Shown: positions 27,323-36,576 of the stretch, one piece after another
Layout of the letters: the number at the start of each line of letters is the position of its first letter
How positions within the stretch are numbered: position 1 is the first letter of the stretch
Assembly: GCA_028868695.1 (NCBI GenBank)
Contig: JAGWTZ010000026.1
Span: 1 to 41,024, forward strand
Length of the DNA: 41,024 bases
From: Alphaproteobacteria bacterium
GTDB taxonomy: Bacteria > Pseudomonadota > Alphaproteobacteria > Rhizobiales > Aestuariivirgaceae
Reading direction: 5' to 3'
The notes under the pieces: model-generated
Told to the model about the DNA's origin: nothing
Database searches by the model: none
What the model saw: only the letters and a program-made list of their open reading frames with translations
Program-made: the position numbers and the translations under genes

Positions 27323-27337
27323 TTAATCATTGGTTAA
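27323..27337. promoter_or_regulatory. CtrA box (TTAA-N7-TTAA)
   Basis: TTAA at 27323-27326, seven bases, TTAA at 27334-27337. This is the full consensus for the alphaproteobacterial cell-cycle regulator CtrA. It lies between the divergent periplasmic-protein gene (start 27233) and the nitroreductase gene (start 27399) and could serve either. Confidence 0.6.
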
Positions 27338-27988: not shown

Positions 27989-28696
27989 ATGGCCATCAAA
28001 GGCATCTTGTTCGACAAGGACGGCACCCTCATCGAGGTGAATGGCACGTGGATTCCGCTCTACTACGACATGTTCAAGACCCACTACGGCCTTGATACTG
28101 ATGGGGCCAATGTCCTGTTGCAACGGGCGGGCTATGACGTTGAGAGCAACAGCTTCCGGGCAGGCAGCGTTCTTGCCGCGGGCACGACGAAGGAACTGGT
28201 TTCGGTGTGGTGGCCGGAACTGAACGCAGACCAGCAGACCGAGCGGGTGCACTACATCAACAACACCATCGCGCCCCAGGCGAAAAAATACGTGAAGCCG
28301 CTGATGAAGCTGGACCAGGTGTTCGACGAATTGCATGCGATGGGCTTGATCCTCGGCCTTGGCACCAATGACTCGGAAGCCTCGGGCCGGGCGCACATGA
28401 CGCATCTCGACGTGCACCACTATTTTGACGTGATGATCGGTGCGGACAGTGTGGCCGAGCCCAAACCCTCGGGCCAGATGATTGCGCATTTCGCTGAGCG
28501 CACGGGCCTCAAGGCTGCCGAGATTGCCATGGTGGGCGACAACAGCCATGACATGGACGAAGCGCGGGCGGGCAAGGCCGGGCTGGCGATTGGCGTTCTT
28601 TCCGGCAATGCGCGGCATGAGGACATCGCCCATCTGGCAGATCATGTGATCAACAGCGTGGCTGACCTGCCGGCCTTGCTGCGCAAGCTTCCGTGA
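27989..28696 (+). CDS. HAD-superfamily hydrolase (phosphoglycolate phosphatase-like)
   Basis: 235 aa. Motif I FDKDGTL (nucleophile Asp) is at 8-14, motif II is LGTND, motif III is KPSG and motif IV is MVGDNSHDMDEA. The cap domain lies between motifs I and II, as in the Gph/PGMB type. It hydrolyses a small phosphorylated metabolite, unspecified. ATG 27989 follows the nitroreductase stop by five bases with GATAGG upstream. The end overlaps the next gene. Confidence 0.87.
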   Translation: MAIKGILFDKDGTLIEVNGTWIPLYYDMFKTHYGLDTDGANVLLQRAGYDVESNSFRAGSVLAAGTTKELVSVWWPELNADQQTERVHYINNTIAPQAKKYVKPLMKLDQVFDELHAMGLILGLGTNDSEASGRAHMTHLDVHHYFDVMIGADSVAEPKPSGQMIAHFAERTGLKAAEIAMVGDNSHDMDEARAGKAGLAIGVLSGNARHEDIAHLADHVINSVADLPALLRKLP

Positions 28697-29283
28697 TGTT
28701 TTATGAAACGGCCAAGGGCTCTGGCCTGGCGCTGGATCCGTTCAAGGCCGTGGTTGTGCCGCGGCCCATTGGCTGGATCTCCACGCTGTCGGCGGCGGGG
28801 GCCGCCAATCTGGCGCCCTACAGCTTCTTCAACGCCTTCTCTGATGATCCGTATTACGTGGCCTTCGGCTCTGGCGGGCGCAAGGACACGCTGGCCAATG
28901 TCGAGGCCACTGGGGAATTTGTGTTCAATCTTGCCACCCATGAGCTGCGTGAAGCGATGAATGCCTCGTCCACCAGCCGCAGTGGTGACGAGTTTGAATT
29001 GGCTGGCCTTGCCAAGGCGGCGTGCCGGCTGGTGAAGCCGCCGCGCGTGGCGGCGAGCCCCGTTGCGCTGGAGTGCCGGCACTTCCACACCGTTCCATTG
29101 CCCAATGATGCCGGTGAGGTGCGGGATTGGCTGGTCATCGGACGGGTGGTGGGCGTGCACATTGATGACCGTTTCATCCGCGAAGGGCGGGTGGATACCA
29201 GCGCCATGAAGCCCGTCGCGCGGCTCGGCTATTCGGAATATGCCACGGTGGAGCAGGTGTGGCGGATGCGCCGGCCCGATTGA
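28696..29283 (+). CDS. flavin reductase family protein
   Basis: 195 aa. The split-barrel FMN-binding fold (DIM6/NTAB family) is recognisable from VVVPRPIGWISTLSAAG, NLAPYSFFNAFSDDPYYVAFG and EFVFNLATHELREAMNASS. Members reduce flavin for partner monooxygenases or act as flavoproteins themselves. The HAD stop and this start share a base in GTGATG, and GTG 28693 is an equally coupled alternative. It is the last gene before the DnaA/CtrA/GANTC region. Confidence 0.88.
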   Translation: MFYETAKGSGLALDPFKAVVVPRPIGWISTLSAAGAANLAPYSFFNAFSDDPYYVAFGSGGRKDTLANVEATGEFVFNLATHELREAMNASSTSRSGDEFELAGLAKAACRLVKPPRVAASPVALECRHFHTVPLPNDAGEVRDWLVIGRVVGVHIDDRFIREGRVDTSAMKPVARLGYSEYATVEQVWRMRRPD

Positions 29284-29390
29284 AGCTGTTTTGGCGGCTG
29301 CAATCAAGGCGTGTGATTGTGGATTGCCCGAGTCGCAACCCGATTCAAATCCAGGCCAAACCGATTCTCGGGAGCGAATATTGCGGTTGC

Positions 29391-29399
29391 TGTGGATAA
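29391..29399 (-). promoter_or_regulatory. DnaA box
   Basis: TGTGGATAA on the plus strand is TTATCCACA on the minus, the strongest form of the 9-base DnaA box. A second identical box in the same orientation lies 55 bp away at 29446. Confidence 0.65.
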
Positions 29400-29445
29400 C
29401 CGGATTTTACATCCGTATTTCAGCGCATTATGCGGACTGAAAAGC

Positions 29446-29454
29446 TGTGGATAA
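29446..29454 (-). promoter_or_regulatory. DnaA box
   Basis: Second perfect TTATCCACA (minus strand), six bases before the CtrA box at 29460. Two weaker TGTGGATT relatives (29318 and 29509) flank the pair. Confidence 0.65.
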
Positions 29455-29459
29455 CCTGT

Positions 29460-29476
29460 TTAATGTCTCATTAACC
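29460..29476 (+). promoter_or_regulatory. CtrA box (TTAA-N7-TTAACC)
   Basis: TTAATGTCTCATTAACC matches the full CtrA consensus including the trailing CC. It lies 61 bp before the start of the receiver-domain gene and next to a DnaA box, so the two proteins could compete or cooperate here. Confidence 0.7.
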
Positions 29477-29536
29477 AATCGGAGTCAGGACTCGTGCACG
29501 TTGCAACCTGTGGATTTGGCTTTGAGGGCTGCCGAG

Positions 29537-29908: not shown

Positions 29909-29932
29909 GAAGCCGTCACCGCGCCTGCCAGG

Positions 29933-29947
29933 TTAACAGGCGTTTAA
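29933..29947. promoter_or_regulatory. CtrA box (TTAA-N7-TTAA)
   Basis: TTAACAGGCGTTTAA, a full-consensus box, lies 67 bp before the DUF2336 start. It overlaps a small inverted repeat (CGCCTG 29922-29927 / CAGGCG 29937-29942) followed by TTTAAAA, which might also act as a weak terminator for the preceding gene. Confidence 0.6.
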
Positions 29948-30013
29948 AAAATGCAGTGAACACATTCTTAAAACTTGGGCGCTAGCCTGCGCTGGTATTG
30001 AGTAGGTGTAGGC

Positions 30014-31177
30014 ATGAGTGAATTTGTTCCGGGTCTGGATATTTCCGTGTTTGAAGGCGTTCTTGCCATGGGCGACGCGGACGCGCGGATGGCCTTGGCC
30101 CTGCAGCTTGCCGCCCTGGTGAGCGACCCTGCGACGCCGAAGATCGAACTGCAGCAGGTCACACCTGTTCTGCTCAAGCTTTCCGTTGATCCTGAGCATG
30201 CCGTGCGTGCTGCCTTGGCCCAGGCCGTGCAAGGTGAAAAGCGCCTGCCGGTTGATGTGGCGTTCTCGATCATTGCCGACGAAGACGAATTTGCCTTGCC
30301 GTTCCTTGCCGCAACGCCGGTATTCAACGCCGGGCAATTGCTCGCCATCCTGAAGGTGGGGGACGAGGCGCGGCAAAAAATCATCGCCACGCGCGCCGAT
30401 CTCGCGCCTGAAGTGGCTGATCACATCATCAAGTCATCCGGCCTTGGCGTGGTTCTTGCGCTGGCCGGCAATGACACCATCCGGCTGGAACCGGCAGATT
30501 GCCGCACGCTCTATCAACGCTTTGGCCAATCGGCTGAAATGGTGGAGCGTCTGCTGTCCATGCCTGACTTGCCACTCGACATTCGCATCACCCAGGCGCG
30601 CCGGGCCGCATCCCGCATGCGCCAGATGATGGCTGAAAAGGCCTGGCTGCCTGCCAATGACGCATCGGAGATTTGTTCCGAGGCGGAAGACAATGCGGTG
30701 ATGCAGGTGCTCATCGAGGCTTCGCCCGCAGAACGCGCACAGGCAACAGCCTATATGGCCTCCAAGAACATGCTGACGCCCGCGCTCATCATCCGCGCCG
30801 CCGCCACAGGGCAGATGAGCGTGGTGGAAAGCGCCTTGGCGCATCTGGCGGGCTTTGCCGCGCCACGCGTGGCCGAGATGATGTATTCGAATTCAGCGCT
30901 GGGCCTCAAATCCCTGTTCCGCAGGTCTGGCTTGCCGCAAAGCTGCTTTGGCATGCTGCGCGCCGCCTGCGACGTGGTGATCGACATGCGCGAAGAAGGC
31001 ATCAGCATCAATGCCGCGGAGTTTGGCGCGCGCCTGCTGGAAGCGCTGATGACGCGTTATGAAACCATGACCTCGCCGGAGCGCGCCAAGAACATCGAGC
31101 TGCTGGGCCGCTATGGCGAAAACAAGATCCGCAAGGTGGCCAAGCGCCTGAAGGCCGACCTGGTGCGCGCCGCCTGA
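30014..31177 (+). CDS. DUF2336 domain-containing protein
   Basis: 387-aa, almost entirely alpha-helical, probably cytoplasmic protein with HEAT-like helix pairs. An example is the repeat around LLKLSVDPEHAVRAALAQAV, which resembles the phrase typical of DUF2336 proteins of alphaproteobacteria. Later helices include VADHIIKSSGLGVVLALAGN and RITQARRAASRMRQMMAEKA. The function of the domain is unknown to me. ATG 30014 has AGGTGTAGG upstream. A CtrA box 67 bp before it and the adjacent pseudo-receiver gene suggest a cell-cycle or signalling scaffold role, which is inference. It converges with nadK, nine bases apart. Confidence 0.82.
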   Translation: MSEFVPGLDISVFEGVLAMGDADARMALALQLAALVSDPATPKIELQQVTPVLLKLSVDPEHAVRAALAQAVQGEKRLPVDVAFSIIADEDEFALPFLAATPVFNAGQLLAILKVGDEARQKIIATRADLAPEVADHIIKSSGLGVVLALAGNDTIRLEPADCRTLYQRFGQSAEMVERLLSMPDLPLDIRITQARRAASRMRQMMAEKAWLPANDASEICSEAEDNAVMQVLIEASPAERAQATAYMASKNMLTPALIIRAAATGQMSVVESALAHLAGFAAPRVAEMMYSNSALGLKSLFRRSGLPQSCFGMLRAACDVVIDMREEGISINAAEFGARLLEALMTRYETMTSPERAKNIELLGRYGENKIRKVAKRLKADLVRAA

Positions 31178-35296: not shown

Positions 35297-36576
35297 GCGG
35301 CCACGCTGATGACATGGGCGTAGGAGCCCATCACGTTGCCGATGCGCTGGCCCATGTGCCCCAGATCAGCGGCAGTGGCATCGCTGGCGCGGAACAGTGG
35401 CTCGCCGCCGCCCTGCCTCGCGATGGTGGAATAGTGAAACTCATGGCCGCGCAGCGCCTGCTGCCACGGCCCAGCCAACGGTTGCAGCTGGCGATAGCCG
35501 AGATGCAGCTTGCGGCTGGCAAAGCTGGTGGCCAGCGGCAAAAGGCCTGCCATGGCATGGCGGGCACCACTGGCATCAATCAGGCCTTCGCCGAGCACCA
35601 TGTATCCCCCGCATTCGCCGTAGATGAGGCCTTGAAACGCCTTCAGGCCATTGAGGAAGCGGCCGTTGGCCGCCAGCTTTCCGGCATGGAGTTCGGGGTA
35701 GCCGCCGGGCAGGAAAACCGCGTCCGCCTTGGGTGGCGCTTCATCGGCCAAGGGTGAGAAAAAGCGCAATTCCGCGCCTTGCCGTTGCCAGCCTTGCAGC
35801 AGATGGGGATAGGCAAAGGAAAAGGCATCGTCGCGGGCCACGGCGATGGATTGGGCCAGTGGTGGCAGGGGGAAGGCCCCGTGCTGGGGATGATTCGCCA
35901 GCGGGGCCGCTGATTCGAATATCCTGTCAAGAAATGTTTCACGTGCGACTCCTGAGGCCGCGCTTTCAATGAAGGCCTCAAGCTGCTGATTCTCTTGGGC
36001 CTGCACCAGCCCAAGGTGGCGGGATGGCAGGGATAGTGAGTCAAACTGGCGCAGGGCGCCGAGCACGGTTGCGCCTATGCCACTGAGCGCGCCATGCAGG
36101 ATCGCCTCGTGCTTGTCGCTGGCCACGCGGTTGAGGATCACGCCTGCGAGGCGCACATCCGGCCGGAAATCCCGGAACCCCTGAACCAGCGCGGCGATGG
36201 ACTGGCCTTGCCTTGCGGTATCGACCACCAGCAGGATGGGCAGGCCGAGTGCTGCCGCCAAGTCAGCGGTGGAGCCCTTGGCACCCTGTGGCCCATCGAA
36301 CAGGCCCATCACGCCTTCAATGATGAGAATGTCCGCGCTTGCGGCTTGCGCGCCTGCGAGCGCCCCTGCCATGGCTTCGCCCATGGCCCAAAGGTCGAGG
36401 TTGATGCAGGGCTTGCCGGTGGCCGCAGCGTGGAAGCCGGGGTCAATATAATCAGGCCCGGCCTTGGCAGAGGCAACGTGCCGGCCCTGGTTCCTCAGGG
36501 CACGGAGCAAACCCAGTGTGAACAGCGTCTTGCCGCTGCCGGAATGGGGCGCGGCGATCACGAGGCCTTTAACCAA
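35293..36576 (-). CDS. cobB: cobyrinate a,c-diamide synthase (CobB/CbiA)
   Basis: 427 aa. ATP- and glutamine-dependent amidation of the a and c carboxylates. The P-loop is APHSGSGKT, followed by KAGPDYIDPGFH, GVMGLFDG and VLNRV. The C-terminal amidotransferase has its Cys in YGECGGYMVLGEGL and EFHYS near the end. The aerobic (hydrogenobyrinate) versus anaerobic (cobyrinate) substrate cannot be told from sequence. The start is a TTG at 36576, overlapping the cobA stop by eight bases, with no ATG nearby. Confidence 0.94.
   Translation of the reverse strand: MVKGLVIAAPHSGSGKTLFTLGLLRALRNQGRHVASAKAGPDYIDPGFHAAATGKPCINLDLWAMGEAMAGALAGAQAASADILIIEGVMGLFDGPQGAKGSTADLAAALGLPILLVVDTARQGQSIAALVQGFRDFRPDVRLAGVILNRVASDKHEAILHGALSGIGATVLGALRQFDSLSLPSRHLGLVQAQENQQLEAFIESAASGVARETFLDRIFESAAPLANHPQHGAFPLPPLAQSIAVARDDAFSFAYPHLLQGWQRQGAELRFFSPLADEAPPKADAVFLPGGYPELHAGKLAANGRFLNGLKAFQGLIYGECGGYMVLGEGLIDASGARHAMAGLLPLATSFASRKLHLGYRQLQPLAGPWQQALRGHEFHYSTIARQGGGEPLFRASDATAADLGHMGQRIGNVMGSYAHVISVAA

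Follow-up and report, generated by a model that had tools for sequence, protein, structure and literature searches.

The DNA analysed here, called the window below, is a stretch of 41,024 nucleotides from an alphaproteobacterium of the family Aestuariivirgaceae, contig C87 of a 101-contig genome of 3.09 Mb. Between a flavin-reductase-like gene and a gene for a protein of 123 amino acids lies a gap of 253 bp (29284-29536), in which DnaA boxes, a CtrA box and GANTC sites are packed into a tight knot. This arrangement raises the question whether the locus is a replication origin, a place where DnaA is titrated, a promoter or an accident of base composition. Comparison of the sites and their neighbours across related genomes leads us to regard the knot as a likely cell-cycle-timed promoter built from origin-like DnaA and CtrA parts.

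The motif cluster and its surroundings

A sequence-only reading of the window had described two perfect DnaA boxes, one CtrA box and five GANTC sites within this gap, and motif scans recovered all of them exactly where it had put them. The DnaA and CtrA motifs, like the KOPS motif used below, were identified by known consensus sequences. The features of the locus are as follows (coordinates of the window):

28693..29283, + strand: flavin-reductase-like gene (Pfam Flavin_Reduct), upstream neighbour on the same strand, outside the regulatory element
29330..29367, no strand assigned: 5' GANTC group (sites at 29330, 29342 and 29363), from the motif scan
29391..29399, + strand: DnaA box 2, perfect, reading TGTGGATAA on the + strand and TTATCCACA on the - strand, from the motif scan
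29420..29430, + strand: TCAG-CGCA-TTA, a weak IHF-like core flanked by the DnaA boxes, a lead only, from the alignment
29435..29443, + strand: degenerate GACTGAAAA at the place where many relatives carry an extra DnaA box (box 3), from the alignment
29446..29454, + strand: DnaA box 4, perfect, TGTGGATAA, its first base 14 bp ahead of that of the CtrA box, from the motif scan
29460..29474, no strand assigned: CtrA box TTAA-N7-TTAA, TTAATGTCTCATTAA, followed by CC, from the motif scan
29482..29494, + strand: 3' GANTC pair (29482 and 29489) within the GAGTCAGGACTCG block, past the CtrA box and ahead of the start codon
29537..29908, + strand: gene for the 123-aa single-domain protein with predicted receiver fold and Lys52 at the expected phospho-acceptor Asp (pseudoreceiver)
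29933..29947, no strand assigned: second exact CtrA-type palindrome, TTAACAGGCGTTTAA, before the SpbR-like gene
29957..29971, + strand: TGAA-N7-TTAA, a near-CtrA box ahead of the SpbR-like gene, from the motif scan
30014..31177, + strand: DUF2336 gene (Pfam DUF2336, 141.7 bits), related to SpbR with a score under the family cut-off

The two perfect DnaA boxes are the only ones that the motif scan found in the window; they lie on the same strand, 55 bp apart, and 5 bases separate box 4 from the TTAA of the CtrA box. TTAA-N7-TTAA palindromes occur three times in the window, where 0.02 are expected, and 36 times in the genome. The third palindrome of the window (27323-27337) coincides in part with the listed start of a gene for a nitroreductase. 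Perfect DnaA 9-mers number 10 in the whole assembly and the reversed pattern 17, so the boxes are not enriched genome-wide. Apart from the knot, the closest two perfect boxes on one contig are at least 4.9 kb apart. The composite of a box, five bases and TTAAN7TTAA has a single genomic occurrence, and a tolerance of up to three mismatches adds one more place. The earlier reading would have given way to equal clusters in many other intergenic regions; with respect to the perfect boxes and the DnaA-CtrA composite, the genome contains no equal cluster.

GANTC sites are depleted in the window, which has 51 of them where 129 would be expected. Despite this depletion, five sites fall within about 150 bp at 35892-36042, inside a cobyrinate diamide synthase gene. 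Since this cluster in coding DNA is as dense as that of the knot, GANTC density alone is not special, and we dropped it as a distinguishing mark. The gap is also richer in AT than its surroundings (0.498, compared with 0.389 in the window), and its most AT-rich 40 bp, about the length of the unwinding element of a Cori-type oriC, reach 0.675, compared with 0.75 near hemE on contig C38. Both the base composition and the coding GANTC cluster would suit an explanation in which the motifs of the knot had met by chance in an AT-richer gap.

Conservation of the element within the genus

The 123-aa protein was searched against 60 relatives and its own genome. An orthologue (E ≤ 8e-23) was found in 33 of 36 same-genus genomes, and the remaining three (G016, G031 and G035) gave weak receiver matches only. 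Together with the window, the 33 relatives (29 from the protein search and four added later) provided 34 loci; 100 dinucleotide shuffle sets of the 34 upstream regions served as the null model.

Conservation of the sites in relatives was one of the tests on which the earlier reading had staked its claim, and they are conserved. The CtrA box is exact in 33 of the 34 loci, compared with at most one region per shuffle set, and the one inexact box (L016) carries a single mismatch. If one mismatch is allowed, 33 upstream regions contain a DnaA box; at this tolerance none was found upstream of the receiver gene in L037. The DnaA-CtrA composite occurs in 32 of the 34 same-genus loci and in none of the 100 shuffle sets, and L026 has DnaA boxes, none of them at the CtrA site. 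In 29 loci a TGTGNAWAA box begins exactly 14 bp before the CtrA box. DnaA boxes (at most one mismatch) also recur in pairs, either 53-58 bp apart (19/34 loci) or 10-12 bp apart (21/34), and neither kind of pair appeared in the 100 shuffle sets. An alignment of 30 of the 34 loci shows that relatives have up to four same-strand DnaA boxes arranged in two pairs. Because the DnaA-CtrA spacing is kept across the 34 loci and never arises in the shuffles, the cluster is not a product of chance, and an accidental meeting of motifs in the gap is extremely improbable.

GANTC sites are part of the conserved layout on both sides. On the 5' side of the CtrA box, all 34 same-genus loci have a GANTC at a distance of more than 80 bp; on the 3' side, 28 have one within 45 bp and six do not. 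The longer string CAGGA[CG]TCG follows the CtrA box in 26 loci. Inspection by eye of the same-genus and distant-locus alignments gave no convincing -10/-35 elements inside the GAGTCAGGACTCG block. The 30-locus alignment also contains a conserved block, GAACGCCGCAATTCCGCCA, just before DnaA boxes 1 and 2, which fits none of the motifs considered.

The flavin-reductase gene lies about 500 bp further from the receiver gene in seven of the 34 loci (L018, L019, L021, L023, L024, L025 and L030), and in all seven the element remains beside the receiver gene. Since it is retained there despite the upstream shift, the element belongs to the receiver gene.

Is the locus a replication origin?

The sequence-only reading had not excluded an origin. 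Like a Cori-type oriC, the knot combines DnaA and CtrA boxes in one intergenic region, and GANTC sites and the raised AT content of the gap would fit such a role too. Composites of the same kind are found at the classical origin position in other genomes: in G056, a genome of another family, hemE and COG1806 flank a DnaA-CtrA pair (both flanks were verified, as URO-D and PF03618), and in G598 another pair stands beside COG1806, with the PF03618 flank alone verified (L167 1501-1528; L166 1022-1049). What the knot lacks of a Cori-type origin is a neighbouring hemE and a divergent switch of strand polarity at the site.

Polarity was followed with a KOPS-like motif, which we take to be GGGNAGGG, in the four-contig relative G027, whose orthologous locus lies at C1:602,749. 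In sampled stretches of contig C1 the motif occurs 28 times forward and once reverse at 0-760 kb, and twice forward and 12 times reverse from 900 kb on. The motifs thus converge at about 760-900 kb; polarity is unchanged at the locus, which is some 160-300 kb from the convergence zone. The window itself has nine forward motifs and one reverse. Along contig C2 of G027, the forward and reverse counts are 5 and 23 across 11 stretches (1-760 kb), 2 and 1 across four (765-845 kb), and 6 and 5 across the eight that lie past 850 kb, so that these sampled stretches contain no clean switch at hemE either.

The absence of the classical origin neighbours, asserted by the earlier reading, was upheld for hemE, which lies on another contig than the knot in both genomes: at C2:804,813 in G027, where the knot is on C1, and on C38 in the genome of the window (G000), where the knot is on C87. 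In both, a perfect DnaA box is found within 250 bp of hemE, about 110 bp before the gene on C38; in G027 hemE is adjoined by several DnaA boxes and by an open reading frame that, by eye, reads like Maf. Among the scanned genes next to the knot, none matched PF03618 (COG1806). Equal arm lengths from the KOPS convergence would place the origin of G027 close to hemE.

GC skew, which the earlier reading had proposed as a check, was followed at the locus and around hemE in G027 and proved uninformative either way. The skew does not change at the locus, remains mostly positive on C1 past 900 kb with no sign change after the KOPS convergence, and has negative values in all C2 stretches, to either side of hemE. 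As it switches neither at hemE nor at the convergence zone, it carries little weight; by the same token, it points to no other origin. The one-way KOPS across the locus in G027 and the position of hemE speak against the origin that had been left open, and on these two grounds we rejected it: that the knot is oriC is very unlikely.

A position far from the origin could suit a different function. With or without promoter activity, the knot could be a DnaA-titration or inactivation site, a same-strand array that would sequester or reset DnaA towards the end of replication while CtrA controls access to it. Two such systems are known from Escherichia coli: datA and DARS are DnaA-box clusters away from the origin, and the boxes of datA flank an IHF site and promote hydrolysis of DnaA-ATP. 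The knot shares with them the location of a DnaA-box cluster away from the origin, and possibly an IHF site. Its distance of 160-300 kb from the convergence zone in G027 would agree with late action, and half of the 36 same-genus relatives (18) carry the exact tandem DnaA pair TGTGGANAANCTGTGGANAA, once each and without exception at this locus. The same tandem pair is missing from the genome of the window, and two to four boxes would make a small sink. The IHF-like core between the box pairs is weak: exact copies of TCAANNNNTTR, presumably the IHF consensus, are present in 10 of the 34 upstream regions (shuffle mean 1.25, maximum 4) and not in the window, so that we treat an IHF site as a weak lead only. 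The knot also differs from datA and DARS in its CtrA and GANTC sites and in being tied to one downstream gene; placed right before a start codon, these sites would be superfluous for a pure sink. Titration as the function of the knot is therefore unlikely, and we return to the promoter as the preferred reading.

Occurrence beyond the genus

In a class-wide sample, the exact composite was found in 7 of 385 genomes, namely that of the window and six others, and the reversed control gave four hits; the six outside composites look like chance and were set aside. In the order sample it was found in 12 of 297 genomes, with no hits of the reversed control. Five of these belong to the genus of the window, all with the composite at this locus, and the others are G496, G056, G598, G045, G050, G525 and G604. 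The DnaA-CtrA layout is limited to particular lineages, given that so few genomes of the order have an exact composite, a count to be read with the insensitivity of the pattern in mind (it detects 5 of the 9 same-genus genomes of this sample).

The composites of G045, G050, G525 and G604 are away from the receiver locus or unassigned. That of G050 (L161 1501-1528) lies about 90 bp before a gene for a histidine kinase with an N-terminal receiver domain, that of G045 (L165) beside a diacylglycerol-kinase-like open reading frame, and for G525 and G604 the receiver search was negative. In G057, which is from another family, an exact tandem DnaA-box pair is found between a YceG-like and a ketoacyl-synthase gene (L168, about position 2005).

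In five more distant receiver homologues (L083, L084, L109, L110 and L164, the last from G496), a CtrA box is preceded at 12-13 bp by a DnaA-like box, which has one mismatch in L109 and is a variant in L110. Within the short flanks covered for these loci, a SpbR-like gene follows downstream in L083 only, and in part in L084. The same-order receiver loci L109-L124 gave a receiver match in 15 of 16 cases (none in L123). Among these 15, L109 and L110 alone carry the DnaA-CtrA unit; it is missing in the other 13, and likewise in L086. We did not count these 13 as the same gene: most begin CheY-like, with DDSxVIRKVARRI or similar, and they appear to represent a different CheY-like gene.

The downstream receiver gene

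The 123-aa protein matches the Response_reg family with 20.3 bits, below the cut-off of 30.2. Its AlphaFold2 model has a pLDDT of 85.5 and a pTM of 0.81, and of the 50 PDB matches listed for the model almost every one is named as a receiver domain or response regulator. A (beta-alpha)5 receiver fold is thus predicted with confidence. Residue 52 lies at the end of the third strand in the model, and in the window this is the lysine that occupies the place of the phospho-acceptor Asp.

The acceptor column has no Asp in any of the 29 rows of the protein alignment A1. Asp is missing also in four of the five same-genus loci outside A1; the fifth, L126, has it, so that 1 of 34 same-genus loci retains the residue. 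Among the five distant homologues, L110 and L164 have Asp and the other three Pro. The receiver is thus degenerate in all but one of the 34 same-genus loci. Phosphorylation has probably been lost inside this lineage, since the Asp is absent from these 33 and kept in L126, L110 and L164. For the same reason, 'pseudoreceiver' was rejected as a fixed trait of the family. It seems that phosphorylation was lost while the promoter was kept.

The SpbR-like gene and a putative second promoter

SpbR is reportedly a Caulobacter protein, in work attributed to Wang and Bowman in 2019. The DUF2336 protein encoded downstream of the receiver gene resembles it in matching the NCBIfam SpbR model (NF052659) over most of its length. 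It differs from SpbR in scoring 196 bits where the cut-off is 400, and in adjoining a degenerate receiver gene. A literature search on DUF2336 found no paper.

After the stop codon of the receiver gene, TGAAN7TTAA is present in 24 of the 34 loci, whereas the shuffles give a mean of 0.11 and a maximum of 1. In these 24 loci the receiver gene is followed directly by the SpbR-like gene, and the gap between the two contains the near-CtrA box (29909-30013 in the window; L009-L027, L029, L030, L033, L126 and L128). This distribution suggests a second CtrA-type promoter before the SpbR-like gene. The exact CtrA palindrome in the same gap was rejected as a conserved site, being exact in 1 of 34 loci. 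In L083 (3210-4460) and L036 (1899-3116), a gene for an MFS transporter lies between the receiver and SpbR-like genes.

A proposed cell-cycle-timed promoter

Taken together, conserved DnaA and CtrA sites stand at a fixed distance upstream of one gene, and conserved GANTC sites lie near the start of that gene in a genome that encodes GcrA (177.2 bits, cut-off 26.9), as in a CcrM/GcrA-responsive promoter. CtrA is encoded as well (421.6 bits, cut-off 350). The earlier reading had preferred a cell-cycle promoter or a titration locus to an origin. Conservation, attachment to the receiver gene and the confinement of the exact tandem DnaA pair to this locus in the same-genus relatives that carry it favour the promoter half of this preference, and the titration half was neither borne out nor overturned.

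From this layout we infer binding by DnaA and CtrA, the direction and timing of regulation, the part played by methylation and what the two genes do, along the following lines. DnaA molecules would line up on the same-strand boxes, of which there are two strong ones in the window and up to four in relatives. The last box abuts the CtrA site, and because it ends 5 bp from that site, DnaA and CtrA would be near enough to compete or to touch. Within the same few helix turns they would probably work either against each other or in succession, as at the Caulobacter origin; we therefore propose that expression of the receiver gene falls in one phase of the cell cycle. CcrM and GcrA could read the hemimethylated state left by the replication fork at the GANTC sites that separate the CtrA box from the start codon, and the promoter thus perhaps senses CcrM methylation as well. 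In the simplest version, the promoter would open in a defined phase, given the presence of DnaA and a permissive state of CtrA and of methylation.

The product of this promoter would be the mostly degenerate receiver and perhaps also the SpbR-like factor. With its own near-CtrA box in most loci, the SpbR-like gene may join the same programme, and the two genes could form a small module for control of the pole or of chromosome segregation. A more far-reaching version, which strikes us as rather unlikely, is that an origin-type DnaA/CtrA switch was recruited or kept as a ter-proximal sensor. Such a sensor would read DnaA activity, CtrA and the late passage of the fork and turn them into expression of the pseudoreceiver and SpbR-like proteins, telling the pole that replication is nearly done, and it would also titrate DnaA.

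Relation to known systems

The closest likeness is to the DnaA-dependent promoters of Caulobacter crescentus. According to the accessible part of one report, Caulobacter DnaA activates hdaA, gcrA, ftsZ and mipZ from one to six boxes located upstream of these cell-cycle genes, with up to six at hdaA and two at ftsZ (PMC3193534). The GANTC state matters at the ftsZ and mipZ promoters too: the accessible part of a second report states that it affects transcription of ctrA, dnaA, ftsZ and mipZ, and that hemimethylated GANTC is found in fewer than 10% of cells at ter-proximal positions compared with about 80% near the origin (PMC3973325). The locus described here differs from the Caulobacter DnaA promoters in that a DnaA box is fixed 14 bp from a CtrA box, and in its target, a degenerate receiver gene next to a SpbR-like gene.

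The adjoining DnaA boxes and CtrA TTAA-N7-TTAA site also recall Cori and the hemE-COG1806 origins, with the composite of G056 as the nearest parallel. In contrast to Cori, the knot is not beside hemE, its gap has one CtrA box where Cori has five, and it lies, with no KOPS switch, nearer to the KOPS convergence than hemE does in G027.

Literature searches, in which the subscription literature was mostly out of reach, found no work on this locus in this lineage. What is new here is that DnaA and CtrA sites at a locked distance from each other stand away from the likely origin, in front of a degenerate receiver gene and a SpbR-like gene. With them, the degenerate receiver and the SpbR-like protein join the candidate parts of the alphaproteobacterial cell cycle, and the locus opens the question of how the state of replication, as carried by DnaA, CtrA and GANTC methylation, may reach other cell-cycle proteins.
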